Below, piece after piece: positions 1,466-13,932 of a DNA stretch of 13,932 nt. Every line of letters starts with the position of its first letter. The stretch's first letter is position 1. Source of the stretch: Gammaproteobacteria bacterium (GTDB lineage: Bacteria; Pseudomonadota; Gammaproteobacteria; Pseudomonadales; Pseudohongiellaceae); the NCBI GenBank assembly GCA_016762995.1, contig JAESUT010000124.1, positions 1 through 13,932 of the forward strand, read 5' to 3'. The notes beneath the pieces were generated by a model. The model ran no database searches and was not told the origin of the DNA. It saw nothing but the letters and a program-made list of their open reading frames with translations. Both the position numbers and the translations under genes were made by a program.

Positions 1466-1605
1466 CTATTCACTGCTGTTTATTCGATATTAGAAAGAAC
1501 CCTGCTATCAAAATGATTAGACTCGGCTGAGAACTAACAACCTTCTGGAATTTACTCCGATTGATCGAAATCGACATAAATTTCATATCAAATGAGAGGA
1601 TAGAC
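1312..1605. other. Intergenic region upstream of the cytochrome c/copper gene
   Basis: About 300 bp with no supported plus-strand gene. It should contain the promoter of the gene at 1606, but I cannot point to a convincing -35/-10 pair. The only other content is the short minus-strand open frame at 1310-1465. Confidence 0.5.
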
Positions 1606-3015
1606 ATGAGAATTTCGTCAATCATGAGCAAGGGCCTGCTACTGGCCTTTTTTGGAATGATACTTCCGTCGGCGACTCTCGCTCAGGAAATCACATTCCA
1701 CAAAGATATCGAGCCAATTCTGCAGCGCAGCTGCCAGAACTGCCATCGGCCTGCCGGTGTGGCACCAATGCCTCTGATCGAGTATGACCAAGTTGCCCCT
1801 TATGCCGGGCTTATTGAGTACAAGACGGGTTTACGTGACCGTGCTGGCGCAATGCCACCTTGGTATGCAGAGAAGGACGTCGGCATTCAACACTTTAAGA
1901 GTGACCCTTCTCTTAGTGATGCAGAGATCGCTGCCATATCCACCTGGGCCCGAAGTGGAACACCTAAAGGGGATGTAGCCGATGCCCCCGAGCCTCTGGT
2001 GTTCGATGACAGTATCAAATGGAGTCTGGGCGAGCCTGACTTGATCGTAAATACGGAAGACTTCTTTATGGCCGGTGGTCGACCGGACTGGTGGGGAGAG
2101 CTTCCAAGGATATCAACGGGTCTAACAGAAGATCGCTATGTGAAATCCGTAGAAATCGTAGAAGTGAATGATGTAGGCGTTGGCGCTGAAGCATCTGATA
2201 CCGTGGGTGGTTTGTATATTTTCCATCACATGATCTGGCGTACTGAGGTATTGGACGAGGATGGCAGATTGGTTGAAGGCGAGGCCGTTAACTGGCCGGT
2301 ACACGAAGTGGGCCGTAATGGTGACATCTTCGACCCGGACGCAGGCCCTTTACTTAAAGCCGGTTCTGCTTTTTTTACCGATTCCGTACACATGCACTCA
2401 AACGGCCGTGATACCACCGGTCATCTACAGATAGGGTTTACCTTTCATCCAGATGGTTATGAGCCTAAGTACAAGACTGGAATCAGCATCATGGGAAATG
2501 GCGTTGATATTAGTGTTGAAGGCAACGGTAAGGATCAGGAGTTACACGCCTACCAAGTACTGACAGAAAACACCAAGGTCATTACTTTCGAGCCTCACTT
2601 GCATGCTCCAGGTGATCGTATGTGTCTGGAAGCTATCTGGGGTTACGCGGTCGAGACACTATCCTGCGTGGGCTACGACCACAATTGGGTGCGAGGCTAT
2701 CCTTTTGCTGATGACTACACACCACTGCTACCAAAGGGCACCATTCTTCACATCACGGGTTATTTCGACAACACGGCTGGAAATGCCAATGTGCCAGATG
2801 CGCGTAACTGGCAGGGTTCTGGAAACCGCTCGGTAACTAATATGTTTATCGACTTGGGAAGCAGGGTAGCCATGACCGATGAGCAGTTTATGGAGGAGAT
2901 GGAAAAACGGCGTACCAATTTGAATCTTGGTCCTAACGATCACGTTATTGGTTGCCCGTTGTGCCTTGCCCCTCTGGTATGGCCGATTGAAAAAACCGCT
3001 GGCGGCAATGACTAA
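1606..3015 (+). CDS. Secreted cytochrome c - copper monooxygenase-like fusion protein
   Basis: 469 residues. ATG at 1606 is chosen because GAGAGGA at 1594-1600 precedes it by 5 nt; the longer TTG form (1561) would put a charged tail before the signal peptide. Residues 1-26 are a signal peptide (cleavage after TLA). A small cytochrome c domain follows, with heme-binding CQNCH at 43-47 and a candidate axial Met83 (AGAMPPW). The rest resembles copper type II ascorbate-dependent monooxygenase (PHM/DBM-like) folds: HHM at 207-209, HMH at 262-264, HLH at 331-333, then YDHNW and GYFDNT, motifs shared by the c-type cytochrome/monooxygenase-like proteins of environmental bacteria. I infer a periplasmic copper enzyme receiving electrons through its own heme. 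Substrate unknown. It is the first gene of a set with the secreted protein at 3138. Confidence 0.88.
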   Translation: MRISSIMSKGLLLAFFGMILPSATLAQEITFHKDIEPILQRSCQNCHRPAGVAPMPLIEYDQVAPYAGLIEYKTGLRDRAGAMPPWYAEKDVGIQHFKSDPSLSDAEIAAISTWARSGTPKGDVADAPEPLVFDDSIKWSLGEPDLIVNTEDFFMAGGRPDWWGELPRISTGLTEDRYVKSVEIVEVNDVGVGAEASDTVGGLYIFHHMIWRTEVLDEDGRLVEGEAVNWPVHEVGRNGDIFDPDAGPLLKAGSAFFTDSVHMHSNGRDTTGHLQIGFTFHPDGYEPKYKTGISIMGNGVDISVEGNGKDQELHAYQVLTENTKVITFEPHLHAPGDRMCLEAIWGYAVETLSCVGYDHNWVRGYPFADDYTPLLPKGTILHITGYFDNTAGNANVPDARNWQGSGNRSVTNMFIDLGSRVAMTDEQFMEEMEKRRTNLNLGPNDHVIGCPLCLAPLVWPIEKTAGGND

Positions 3016-3137: not shown

Positions 3138-4181
3138 ATGAAATTAGCATTCAAGCAAGAGATCGATAACAAGTTCAATAGCTTACTAAAGCCTGTCCTA
3201 GTGCTCTTCGCGAGCAGTCTGGTACTGGTTTCCAGCCTGGCGACAGCAGAGCCGGACTACGAATACACCAAGCACAGTTATGCTAGTGGTCAACACACTG
3301 AAGTTGCCTACGAGGGTTGGCGAGTAGATGACAGCGGTGCTATTACGTTCACGTTTGGTTACTTTAATCACAACTGGGAAGAAGAACTCGATATTCCCAT
3401 TGGTGAGAATAATCGCTTCACTACGGGTGATCCGGACCGTGGCCAGCCTACTCATTTCTTGCCGCGTCGAAACCGTTTTACCTTCGATGTGCCGGCGCCT
3501 GAAGGCTTCGCTGCAGATGATGAGTTGGTGTGGGAGGTGACGTCTCCTAACGGAGTGACCCGCGGAGCCTACGCGACTCTCAGAGATGATTACAAGATAG
3601 AAAATATAACGATCATGTCGGAAACTGGCTCTCTAGGAGCTGGTTCGTCCGATGAAACAATCAGGGCTAATACTCCGCCAGTGTCGGAACTAATCGGAGA
3701 CACTATTCGGACGGTTAGTGTGGGTCAAGCCCTGACGTTTCAGACTCGAGTTAGTGATGACGGCGTTCCAGAGCCCTTCGATCCCATGCGGCGCGTCAGG
3801 CGTCTCGGGGGTGCAGCCGCGGCCTTCATAACGGAAGAGTCGGTTCGCGAAAGAATGATGATGATGCCACCGCCAAAACCCACAGTGGCCAAGAATAATG
3901 GTTTGTTCTTGTCCTGGAATGTTTACCGAGCTCCAGAATCCGTAACGGCGGCACAGGATGTGGTGCATTTCGATCCGCCGCAGATTAAGCCTTGGGAAGA
4001 TACCCGTCCTACAGCTAACTCACCTTGGAGCTGGCTGTGGATACCGCCGGAGTTACCTGAAGATGGAATCTATGAAGTGTCTGTCACCTTTGATGAGCCA
4101 GGTACTTACCTGCTTTGGGGGCGCGCAGATGATGGCGGGTTGTACCAAGATCAATACCTGACGGTTAATGTTACCCGGTAG
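3138..4181 (+). CDS. Secreted protein of unknown function, partner of the copper/heme protein
   Basis: 347 residues. ATG at 3138 opens a long N-region followed by a signal peptide h-region (KPVLVLFASSLVLVSSLATA), with cleavage expected after ATA near residue 37. The mature protein looks all-beta: YEGWRVDDSGAITFTFGYFNHNWEEELDIPIG near the N-terminus and a C-terminal strand-rich part ending in GTYLLWGRADDGGLYQDQYLTVNV, like a bacterial Ig-type sandwich. No catalytic motif is visible. A run of four Met (RERMMMMPPP) sits in the middle. I know no named domain, but proteins with this pattern occur beside cytochrome c/copper monooxygenase-like genes, as here, 122 bp downstream in the same direction. 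A structural or metal-handling partner is my inference. Confidence 0.78.
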   Translation: MKLAFKQEIDNKFNSLLKPVLVLFASSLVLVSSLATAEPDYEYTKHSYASGQHTEVAYEGWRVDDSGAITFTFGYFNHNWEEELDIPIGENNRFTTGDPDRGQPTHFLPRRNRFTFDVPAPEGFAADDELVWEVTSPNGVTRGAYATLRDDYKIENITIMSETGSLGAGSSDETIRANTPPVSELIGDTIRTVSVGQALTFQTRVSDDGVPEPFDPMRRVRRLGGAAAAFITEESVRERMMMMPPPKPTVAKNNGLFLSWNVYRAPESVTAAQDVVHFDPPQIKPWEDTRPTANSPWSWLWIPPELPEDGIYEVSVTFDEPGTYLLWGRADDGGLYQDQYLTVNVTR

Positions 4182-4309: not shown

Positions 4310-4831
4310 GTGGGTGTAGTGCGTAGCGTGAAGAGTCGCAATTTGGTAAGCCAATCTCGAAAACCATTCGTGAGCCTGTTGTTGTCTCTGAGTTTTTTGT
4401 TCTCGTTATCGGCCAGTTCATTGGTTCTGGGCCAGCATGTTATGCCTGGCATGTCTGATCACGGCGGTCTGCAACTTTCTACTGTGCCTGCTGATGACGA
4501 AGTCGTTGCTAAGGCCCCCCAGTCGATCATGCTGAATTTTGAGTCTGAGGTGCGGTTGGTGAAGCTGGCGCTGAAAGAAACGAAGCAGGGCGAGATCCTG
4601 ATCGATTTTCGATATAACCCGGCTGTGGGCATGCAATACATGCAACTGCTTCCCTCGCTGGCAGCAGCTGATTATTACAAGGTTGAGTGGGCAGCGCTCG
4701 ATGCCAGTGGCAAGCTAGTTAAGGGTAGTTTCTACTTTTCATTTGGAGATGGTGCCAAGCCCCCATCGTCTTACATGCAGGGAATGGATCACAATATGCA
4801 GATCATCTCTCCAGATTATAGGTTGCTTTAG
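4310..4831 (+). CDS. CopC/YobA-like periplasmic copper protein with Met/His tails
   Basis: 173 residues. The start is GTG at 4310, with AGGAG at 4299-4303 and a 6-nt spacer; the overlapping ATG at 4308 runs into a stop. The signal peptide spans about residues 20-41 with likely cleavage after VLG. The mature protein begins QHVMPGMSDH, then shows the CopC-type Ig fold: LSTVPADDEVVAKAPQSIML, later strand VKGSFYFSFGD. CopC proteins bind Cu(II) through an N-terminal His and a His before the last strand (DGHxVxG); here the latter reads SGKLVKG, so that His is missing, and the first His is residue 2 of the predicted mature chain. Met and His are instead concentrated at both ends (C-terminal MQGMDHNM), which suits Cu(I) binding or delivery. 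Likely acts with the copper/heme protein upstream. Confidence 0.8.
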   Translation: MGVVRSVKSRNLVSQSRKPFVSLLLSLSFLFSLSASSLVLGQHVMPGMSDHGGLQLSTVPADDEVVAKAPQSIMLNFESEVRLVKLALKETKQGEILIDFRYNPAVGMQYMQLLPSLAAADYYKVEWAALDASGKLVKGSFYFSFGDGAKPPSSYMQGMDHNMQIISPDYRLL

Positions 4832-10000: not shown

Positions 10001-10243
10001 TTGGTGGAAAACCTAGGTGCGAGAAAATACAAGCTGGTGTTTAGTCTTATTTTCTTGCTTGGATTGGGATTAATTATTTATGGCTTTAGTTTCTCGAGCT
10101 TTATTCCGCTATGGGACCCTTCGCTTGCATGCTCCTGCGGATTGGGAATTAAAGTGTTAGTACCGATCGAGTCATTCTTCAATCACCGTGGGCGGGAAGA
10201 ACAGGTTCAATGCTCGATTGCTGGCAAAGGGTACAAAGCCTAA
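10001..10243 (+). CDS. Doubtful small membrane protein overlapping the GH114 gene
   Basis: 80 residues starting at TTG 10001 (or the adjacent GTG). It has one clear hydrophobic segment, KLVFSLIFLLGLGLIIYGFSF, then a short Cys pair (CSC). The last 72 bp overlap the 3' end of the GH114 gene on the other strand. There is no recognisable ribosome binding site and no family. The first 55 codons lie in otherwise empty DNA, which is why I list it; the overlapping tail may not be real coding sequence. Confidence 0.3.
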   Translation: MVENLGARKYKLVFSLIFLLGLGLIIYGFSFSSFIPLWDPSLACSCGLGIKVLVPIESFFNHRGREEQVQCSIAGKGYKA

Positions 10244-11554
10244 GGCTCGAGAGGTCTCGAAAACGAAGTTAACGTTGTCTGGCTGCAGGGCATAATCCAC
10301 GGTAAAGACAATGACGCCTTTCTCGCGGGCAAGGGCCAGCTCGCTTATATATGCCTCACTGCTCACGTGCAGTGTACTGTCGGTAAATGTCTCGTATTGC
10401 TCCCTACACGCTGTCGACAGACTGCTCACATAGGCATTGGTTTCGACATCGGCCTCCGTTCGGGGCAAGGGGCAGTCGCCAGGCGGGTCGTTGTCGGCGG
10501 CCCCATCGAACCAAACCTGTTCTTGTGCAATGGCATCTACAGCGTTCAGATATTCATCGTCTGCAACTAATTCAGCCGCGTTCTGTCCTATGACGATGAA
10601 GTTGGGCTGCTGGTTTCGTGTAAAATTCGCGATGTCGGTTACCCACCAGATCATCTCTTGTCGAGGGTCGACGCCGTCTTGCTGCGCCGCCGCGATGATG
10701 TTGTCGTCGGAATAGGCCTCAATCCAATCCAGATAAACCCCGTCAAAGCCGAGATCGAGAATATCCTGCAGATAACCATCTACACCTAACCAGATATCGC
10801 GCCAATCATCGTGCCAATAGGCCACCGGGAAATTGCCCTCCCAGCCATCTGGGTCCAAGGCTGTAATCCACTCAGGGTTGCCGACGCCCCAACCGGGCTG
10901 CCAGTAGCTGCGAAAATCTTCTGCCTGTCCGATATCGATATAGGCCATGACAAGCTTAGGTTTAGGGGCGCTCTGTAACTCAGCAACCACCGCCGCCATC
11001 GGAAAATCTGTATTATTTGCCTCTGAAGGAATGAAATCCAGCACCACCATGTCGTACTCCGACGCGGTGATTTTCTCCACCATATCCTGCTCAAGGTTTA
11101 CATCTATCATATAGAACCAAGTAGAAACTTTTGCCAGGCTCGGTTTGCCGCTCCCAAGCGCATCAGCGCAACCCGGGTTTTCCGCCGCTGTTCCTAGCGC
11201 TAAACTCGAAGATTCAACATCGAGATTCATCGTCAGGGTGTATTCGGAATCATTATAAACAAGACAATTTATCGTCAGCGTGCTGCCTTCAAATATTGCT
11301 GATACTGCTTCCGTAGAATCGATTTCGCTTGCGCTATTAACTACCCAATTGGGATTTGCGTAGCTTAAACCCACCTGAAAATAGTCTGATCCGAACCTTA
11401 AGACAGGGATGCTGATGGAGAGATCGGATTCGACGATCGCTTCATTGACGGCATGGCCAGGGCTGGAGGCGCAAGCGACGGCCCCGCAAAAAAATAAGCC
11501 GTAGATTGTTTTATTTGTTGGTTTGGTCATGTGTGTGAGGTTATGTTCAACCAT
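10172..11554 (-). CDS. Secreted GH114-family glycosidase (endo-alpha-1,4-polygalactosaminidase type)
   Basis: 460 residues from ATG at 11554, or 452 from ATG at 11530, which gives a cleaner signal peptide (TKPTNKTIYGLFFCGAVACA, cleavage around SPGHA). After a beta-rich N-terminal part (about 40-140), residues 144-450 match the GH114/TM1410 alpha/beta barrel: VVLDFIPSEAN, PKLVMAYIDIGQAEDFRSYW, GNFPVAYWHDDWRDIW, GFDGVYLDWIEAYSD and PNFIVIGQNA. Asp172 and the Asp276/Glu279 pair in YLDWIEAY are candidate active-site acids. Members such as fungal Ega3 cleave alpha-1,4-linked galactosaminoglycan, and the bacterial PelA hydrolase is related; a role in degrading an exopolysaccharide outside the cell is inferred. 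Transcribed alone, with a possible short upstream ORF touching its start. Confidence 0.9.
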   Translation of the reverse strand: MVEHNLTHMTKPTNKTIYGLFFCGAVACASSPGHAVNEAIVESDLSISIPVLRFGSDYFQVGLSYANPNWVVNSASEIDSTEAVSAIFEGSTLTINCLVYNDSEYTLTMNLDVESSSLALGTAAENPGCADALGSGKPSLAKVSTWFYMIDVNLEQDMVEKITASEYDMVVLDFIPSEANNTDFPMAAVVAELQSAPKPKLVMAYIDIGQAEDFRSYWQPGWGVGNPEWITALDPDGWEGNFPVAYWHDDWRDIWLGVDGYLQDILDLGFDGVYLDWIEAYSDDNIIAAAQQDGVDPRQEMIWWVTDIANFTRNQQPNFIVIGQNAAELVADDEYLNAVDAIAQEQVWFDGAADNDPPGDCPLPRTEADVETNAYVSSLSTACREQYETFTDSTLHVSSEAYISELALAREKGVIVFTVDYALQPDNVNFVFETSRALGFVPFASNRALNLFFPPTVIEE

Positions 11555-12997: not shown

Positions 12998-13009
12998 GGA
13001 AGGGTCAAA
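12998..13009 (+). promoter_or_regulatory. Strong ribosome binding site for the selenoprotein start
   Basis: GGAAGGG at 12998-13004 followed by TCAAA and ATG at 13010. This is among the best-spaced sites in the window and is one of the main reasons to treat the short ATG-TGA frame as the start of a real gene. Confidence 0.7.
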
Positions 13010-13345
13010 ATGAAAGTTAAAATCACTTATTGTACGATTTGAAACTACCTGCCAGACGCCGCTAGTGTGTCGGCAGAAATCAAATCATCTACTGGTGTGG
13101 ATGCCGCGCTCATTTCTGGACGCGGGGGTATCTTCGGCGTAAAAAGAGATGACGTGGTGATATTCTCCGTTAAACTCCTCCGTCTCTTGCTCGCCTTATT
13201 CGAAAGGGCTATCTTCTTTCTTCGGTATACTGGGATTATCGGCAGCGCCAAAGCTGCCCACCCCTACCGGCGCCGCCCCGCCAGCGCCACCAGGGGTGTC
13301 GCTGGCGGCCACGATCACCGCAGGCGGCGCCTGCTGCGATCCTAG
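13010..13345 (+). CDS. Selenoprotein W-like (Rdx family) redox protein with in-frame TGA
   Basis: From ATG 13010 the frame reads MKVKITYCTI, TGA (13040-13042), NYLPDAASVSAEIKSSTGVD, AALISGRGGIFGVKRDDVVI, FS. With TGA as selenocysteine (residue 11) this matches the SelW/Rdx family: a first beta strand, then the redox motif CxxU (C8-T-I-U11), then NYxPxAA, an amphipathic helix, LIxGxGGxF and a closing strand VVIFS. The family is a small thioredoxin-like fold, often Cys in place of Sec. A SECIS-like hairpin follows the TGA. Recognisable similarity ends near 13168; the formal frame runs on to TAG at 13343-13345 and overlaps the minus-strand gene. The usual Glu of GGxFEV is Gly43 and the C-terminal RFP motif is missing, so a frameshift near 13168 or a decaying copy is possible. 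Use needs SelA/SelB/SelC/SelD elsewhere in the genome. Confidence 0.8.
13049..13076 (+). promoter_or_regulatory. Candidate bacterial SECIS element
   Basis: CTGCC (13049-13053) pairs with GGCAG (13072-13076), then after a bulged A, GAC (13055-13057) pairs with GTC (13069-13071), extended by G.T and C-G pairs and possibly C60-G65 with U66 bulged. The apical loop then starts with G (13061). It begins 6 nt after the TGA and its loop is about 18 nt from the TGA, in the range for bacterial SECIS hairpins, which lie in the coding region just after UGA and recruit SelB. Confidence 0.68.
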
Positions 13346-13932
13346 GGCGCCCAGATTTCGGGCTACATCGCTACCGATGCCGCTCTGTAGCTCGGGAGGC
13401 ATGTTGTTTATCGCGGCCGCCGTGAGTGTTCCAACCGTGGTTCCCGTGACGTCGTCTCCGCCCTCTTGCAGGCCGTTTACGGCGCTTTGCAGCACGTCAG
13501 TCATGGTGTCAGCATCGAGGTTTGGCAGGTTGGCCGCCGCCGCACTCACGGCTGGCGCAGCTTGGCTCGGATCCGCCTGTGCCGCATTGCCGGTCGCTGC
13601 CGTAACCCCGTCGGTATCACCGATCTGAGCCAGGCCGCCGATCACGTTGGAAGTACCTTGTTGGTGAGCTGCCTGGGAGGCTGCATCACCGTCTGTTAGG
13701 GCGTCGTCGAGGGTGGCTTGCAGCGAGGCGGTCACGGCAGCGAGGCGGTCGACTACTGTCTGTTCATTTGTATTCAAACCCGTGGGCGCGGCATCAAGTA
13801 CGCCGGCGTTGTCGAGTATCGTTATCGAGGTGATGCCCAGCGCATCCATGGTCTGGTCTTGTCGGGCATTGACGGCGGCCTGCTGTGTCGCTAGCTGCGT
13901 CGAGGATGTCTGCGGCGCTGGCATTGCCTGCT
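13196..13932 (-). CDS. Ala/Gly-rich protein, 5' end outside the window
   Basis: At least 244 residues; the frame stays open to the window edge (the ATG at 13924 is preceded by two more sense codons), so the true start is upstream. The composition is unusual: Ala, Gly, Thr, Asp, Gln dominate, there is not a single Cys or Trp and hardly any aromatic residue. Repetitive stretches such as SQAAPAVSAAAANLPNLDAD and PGGAGGAAPVGVGSFGAADN suggest an extended or fibrous, perhaps surface-exposed or structural protein. It ends NPSIPKKEDSPFE at 13196. The coding region is much richer in G+C than the rest of the window. I recognise no domain. Confidence 0.72.
   Translation of the reverse strand, partial: QAMPAPQTSSTQLATQQAAVNARQDQTMDALGITSITILDNAGVLDAAPTGLNTNEQTVVDRLAAVTASLQATLDDALTDGDAASQAAHQQGTSNVIGGLAQIGDTDGVTAATGNAAQADPSQAAPAVSAAAANLPNLDADTMTDVLQSAVNGLQEGGDDVTGTTVGTLTAAAINNMPPELQSGIGSDVARNLGALGSQQAPPAVIVAASDTPGGAGGAAPVGVGSFGAADNPSIPKKEDSPFE

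Follow-up and report, generated by a model that had tools for sequence, protein, structure and literature searches.

A short reading frame near the end of a gammaproteobacterial contig is interrupted by a single TGA after ten codons. This raises two questions, namely whether the TGA is read as selenocysteine in a gene of the SelW (Rdx) type, and whether this gene is still whole. The stretch analysed here, called the window, comprises 13,932 nucleotides of contig JAESUT010000124.1. We consider it rather probable that the locus is a SelW-type gene with UGA decoded as selenocysteine, and that this particular copy has been cut at its 3' end, is impaired and is heading towards loss. Elsewhere in the window, the minus strand encodes a GH114-type glycoside hydrolase (10172-11554), and a CopC-domain protein (4310-4831) lies downstream of two ORFs that had no Pfam match.

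Reading frame and family assignment

A preliminary description of this DNA had claimed a ribosome-binding site, an ATG, ten codons, a TGA and an open frame beyond it, and all of these are present on the plus strand. The ribosome-binding site GGAAGGG (12998..13004, read directly) lies 5 nt before the ATG at 13010, ten codons lead to the TGA at 13040..13042, which is the predicted selenocysteine codon (residue 11), and the frame remains open to 13345. With the TGA taken as a residue, the SelW/Rdx-homologous part of 53 codons (13010..13168) reads MKVKITYCTIUNYLPDAASVSAEIKSSTGVDAALISGRGGIFGVKRDDVVIFS, followed by the tail; this part is supported by PF10262 and NF041051 matches, alignment with 26 relatives and an AlphaFold2 model. 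In the same alignment the redox motif is C8-T-I-U11, i.e. the CxxU that follows the first strand in the SelW family.

Profile searches placed the translation in the Rdx/SelW family, as had been proposed, with the TGA taking the position of the second Cys in CxxC. PF10262 (Rdx/SelW) matched residues 2-54 with 37.4 bits (E 2.9e-9, cut-off 22.6), and of PF10262, TIGR02174 and NF041051 it was the only profile whose curated cut-off was passed. The suggested search against TIGR02174 (CXXU_selWTH) did give a match (residues 3-53, profile positions 1-55 of 74, E 9.6e-6), but its 25.8 bits fell below the cut-off of 34.2. NF041051 (SelT/SelW/SelH family (seleno)protein) matched residues 3-55 with 55.8 bits (E 4.1e-15), below its curated cut-off of 88. 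Six selenocysteine-containing relatives that were tested passed TIGR02174 (37.6-54.6 bits) and themselves stayed short of 88 bits with NF041051 (75.5-86.3). The window matches cover the first 53-55 residues, their last aligned profile positions being 54-56 of 70-74. The frame continues one conserved fold, as had been stated, but only until about 13168, which corresponds to positions 1-56 of the 74 in the profile; the last conserved block is missing. When translation was started at GTG 13067 alone, NF041051 was the one profile left, with 16.2 bits.

The AlphaFold2 model has pLDDT 94-96 over residues 1-50 and superposes on the solved Rdx/SelW-type structures 3dex, 2fa8, 2ojl, 2p0g, 2obk and 2npb, the five best structural rows aligning residues 1-58 or 1-59 only. 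PF10262 found nothing but the window gene in its own assembly (E 1e-6), with one TGA within the match. Together, the profile matches and this sole occurrence indicate that the gene is more than a product of chance. A spurious frame was rejected as well, given that 36 same-genus matches show this TGA in this frame; a 45-base model from which the window had been left out also located the site (E 1.3e-9 within the window, 2.9e-7 across the whole genome).

The TGA codon in relatives and the decoding machinery

An Rdx match was present in 35 of 60 same-genus genomes (36 matches, each with one in-frame TGA) and absent from the other 25; in the rest of the order, 8 of 36 genomes had an Rdx match without a stop. 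Of the 36 same-genus sequences 35 were read, one being left out as its protein repeats that of another genome (G046 and G016, respectively), and in all 35 the TGA occupies the same place. A tree of 36 rows and 54 columns did not resolve the place of the window copy.

An alignment search of the protein database reported 146 relatives, 120 of them listed. Among 24 that were fetched, 22 span the selenocysteine place, which is occupied by Trp in 17, Cys in three (P0021, P0023 and P0025), Leu in one (P0003) and Lys in one (P0014). The Trp residues probably result from the caller having read TGA as Trp. Two further entries of 53 residues each (P0028 and P0029) start after the TGA, so that the claim that gene callers lose the part around this codon holds for these two relatives. 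A family of predicted selenoproteins thus appears to be spread through one genus and mis-read by annotation, most of the database copies checked carrying Trp at the selenocysteine place and two starting after it. As is typical of bacterial selenoproteins, the UGA is conserved in orthologues (36/36) and also paired with Cys (P0021, P0023 and P0025), and the selenocysteine reading of TGA 13040 is well supported by this comparison of sequences. A homologue search with the window protein alone found nothing. Two scans of genome_contigs found nothing either, the query of the second having a Cys codon at the selenocysteine place and hence being blind to TGA genes; viral_contigs searched with P0014 gave no match.

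Several copies in the genus deviate in their own ways. In the nearest relative (G034, minus strand, near a contig end), the ATG that most copies have ten codons ahead of the TGA is replaced by CTG. The database protein P0014 is closely related to the G034 protein; it has Lys at the selenocysteine place and Cys instead of Tyr two residues on, and scores below the TIGR02174 cut-off. Genome G056 contains two selW copies 5.5 kb apart, belonging to the subgroup with hairpin core GTCAGTCTGGC; the nearer of the two has relatives of the window genes 1561-3015 and 3138-4181 at distances of about 3 and 5 kb.

As for the decoding machinery, the preliminary description had suggested a check for selA, selB, selC and selD. 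In the own genome selB (396 bits) and tRNA-Sec (68.9 bits) were found on one 8.9-kb contig and selD (297 bits) was found too, all above cut-off, but a search for selA found no match in this draft assembly (234 contigs, 92% complete). By our count selA is present in 53 of 60 same-genus genomes, and a tRNA-Sec match of at least 59 bits is listed for 49 of 60. On one contig, tRNA-Sec and selA are about 28 kb apart in G012 and about 23 kb apart in G002; because this spacing exceeds the reach of the own contig, the missing selA is weak evidence. By analogy with established bacterial selenocysteine biology, UGA codon 11 would be decoded by SelB and tRNA-Sec under the direction of the hairpin that follows it immediately. 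The ancestral product would have been a small thioredoxin-fold protein whose first strand is followed by CxxU, with a Cys-Sec pair and a presumed redox role like that of the family.

A true stop at this position, which would make the locus a dead fragment of a Cys-type Rdx gene whose Cys codon mutated to TGA, seems to us extremely improbable. It would be compatible with the missing selA and with the altered state of the genus hairpin in the window (see below), but it is contradicted by the conserved hairpin and by a TGA at this place in every one of the 36 same-genus matches, as well as by the presence of selB, tRNA-Sec and selD in the genome.

The hairpin downstream of the TGA

The genus stem-loop occupies 13058..13074 on the plus strand and consists of six pairs and a loop of five with GU, as derived from pair counts and from a model built without the window (R1). 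After the TGA, GACCGTGTGTC was present in 26 of 35 relatives, GTCAGTCTGGC in six and close variants in three, and all 35 relatives read can form the three apical pairs of the stem. Across 34 distinct 45-base rows, 92.6% of cells pair, compared with a shuffled mean of 79.2%, and both sides have changed in 25 cells, compared with 7.2; none of 500 shuffles reached either value. Sliding the partners lowered pairing to 14-46%. Two other counts, of pairs showing a double change and of additional pair types, gave no excess over shuffling (equalled in 82 and 215 of the 500 shuffles, respectively); 18 of the 25 double changes fall on one pair and six more in one subgroup. On its own, the hairpin reaches the pair probability of 0.5 that was taken as favouring it in only 19 of 33 relatives, and z is below -2 in four of 33. 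An Rfam search at gathering scores found nothing. In the own genome, the next match to this hairpin (contig C192, 17.7 bits, E 0.2) showed no convincing case in the 241 bases read there. By comparison, we read the element as a SECIS-type hairpin, and the genus yields an aligned set of such bacterial hairpins. Family, codon and the hairpin of the genus are supported by sequence comparison, and selenocysteine decoding and the redox role are expected by analogy.

The window itself departs from this pattern. Its hairpin core differs from that of the genus by three changes (GACCGT to GCTAGT), which together produce one C x U mismatch; the first of these letters occurs in none of the 35 relatives, the second in one and the third in six. 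Model R1 gave the window 38.8 bits and 30 relative matches 52.6-67.8 bits, a gap that is overstated because these relatives are the training rows of R1 or copies of them. The window RNA can instead be folded into an alternative, stronger hairpin (13049..13076, plus strand, -15.7 kcal/mol), whose z of -3.7 is the second strongest of 34 rows. Between the window and its nearest relative, pN/pS was 0.42, higher than in any of the other 26 rows (0.10-0.39); leaving out the hairpin codons lowered it to 0.39. The median to all rows was 0.443, within the range of the others (0.338-0.516) and hence no outlier, so that decay is not proven by these values.

The 3' end and the state of the gene

In the 26 aligned relatives, the protein continues with FSKxxxxRFPxxGEI, with some variation. 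In the window, FSVKLLRLLLALFERAIFFL stands in its place and the frame extends to 13345, so that this conserved C-terminal block, which is expected of SelW, is absent. The replacing tail (13169..13345, plus strand, first 23 bases doubtful) is without clear homology. Clear DNA similarity ends at 13168; an ungapped alignment with the nearest relative extends to 13191 (12 identities in the final 23 bases), which places the end of homology between 13168 and 13191. The 60 bases after 13168 were compared with the tails of 32 relatives (lowest p 0.018 and 0.044 of 32, median 0.72). Controls with six relatives gave a lowest p of 0.0 and median p of 0.015 to 0.57, and the test is weak because even the 60 bases before the join gave a median p of only 0.17 (30 relatives). 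Hidden homology of the tail was rejected on the lack of clear similarity in this weak test.

From 13196 on, GC content is 0.63, compared with 0.47 before, and an unrelated, convergent Ala-rich ORF of 63% GC (13196..13924, minus strand, open at the contig end) overlaps the tail. In the protein database this ORF found only itself among the best 8000 candidates scored, and no match was found in plasmids and phages searched with the ORF or its DNA. In 83 other genus genomes it gave one weak, probably spurious match to a protein that we presume to be beta-lactamase-like, and this was taken as a composition match. We further looked for a second selW in the usual neighbourhood. Among seven relative loci listed, what we take to be a QETPxxW-type protein lies near selW in five and a presumed OFA-type transporter in at least two. 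In the own genome, the QETPxxW-type query was unmatched and the OFA-type query gave only a 26% partial match, a second copy being dismissed no more than tentatively.

The idea of a whole gene that is still read is not supported at present: its C-terminal block is gone and the hairpin after the TGA departs from the genus consensus. The missing end probably reflects either a truncation in the recent past or a join made during assembly. As for the latter, the gene would be whole and functional in the organism, and the contig chimeric after about 13168. The draft state of the assembly (234 contigs), the position of the join 764 bases from the contig end, the rise in GC and the flanking ORF without a homologue but itself are all consistent with this. 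On the other hand, the window contains no N, and already before the join the hairpin core departs from that of the genus, which a mis-join cannot account for. We judge a real loss of the end to be the likelier case, and a whole gene behind a chimeric contig to be rather unlikely. Truncation is supported by the missing end of the relatives, the tail without clear similarity, the GC shift and a TIGR02174 score below those of the six selenocysteine-containing relatives.

According to the truncation model, the SelW sequence in this assembly gives way to unrelated DNA rich in GC at some point from about 13168 to 13195, and the product would comprise 53 SelW residues and a 58-residue foreign tail. 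This tail could also be viewed as a new C-terminal helix of a working selenoprotein of altered design, with the hairpin remodelled into a stronger one. AlphaFold2 does predict a helix at residues 54-74 (mean pLDDT 86 over 61-70 and 80 over 71-80), the alternative hairpin is strong, and pN/pS is below 1. Nevertheless, pLDDT drops to near 50 or below past residue 80, the five best structural rows stop at residue 58 or 59 without superposing the new helix, and the tail is antisense to another ORF, so that the helix may be accidental. We find such a redesign improbable. An impaired copy on its way to loss is the most likely state, and it may no longer work. More speculatively, SelW may be in the process of being lost or rebuilt in one sub-lineage, represented by the foreign tail, the remodelled hairpin, the Lys of P0014 and the CTG of G034; we hold this broader scenario to be doubtful. 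If true, the sub-lineage would provide a natural series of a selenocysteine gene dying while the decoding machinery stays. In any case, the window copy serves as a warning that a correct selenoprotein call does not mean an intact gene.

Among known systems, passages of two marine surveys describe SelW-like proteins as the largest selenoprotein family, with 48 genes in the Sargasso Sea set (PMC1088965) and 427 in the Global Ocean Sampling set (PMC2398784), and SelW-like losses in sister genomes are listed in part of another report (PMC1794560). As portrayed in those survey passages (PMC1088965, PMC2398784), marine bacterial SelW-like selenoproteins share with the gene studied here the CxxU motif and a hairpin directly after the UGA with G in a small apical loop, and the Rdx domain of the genus relatives (about 72 residues) is of similar length. 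The window copy is set apart from them by its missing C-terminal block and its changed hairpin core. NF041051 and TIGR02174 are the best profile matches, the window being below the curated cut-offs of both. The tail helix is not superposed on the C-terminal part of the solved structures 3dex, 2fa8, 2ojl, 2p0g, 2obk and 2npb in the five best structural rows. Given the prominence of SelW-like proteins in the marine sets, the kind of gene is already known, and the window gene appears to be a new, damaged member of it.
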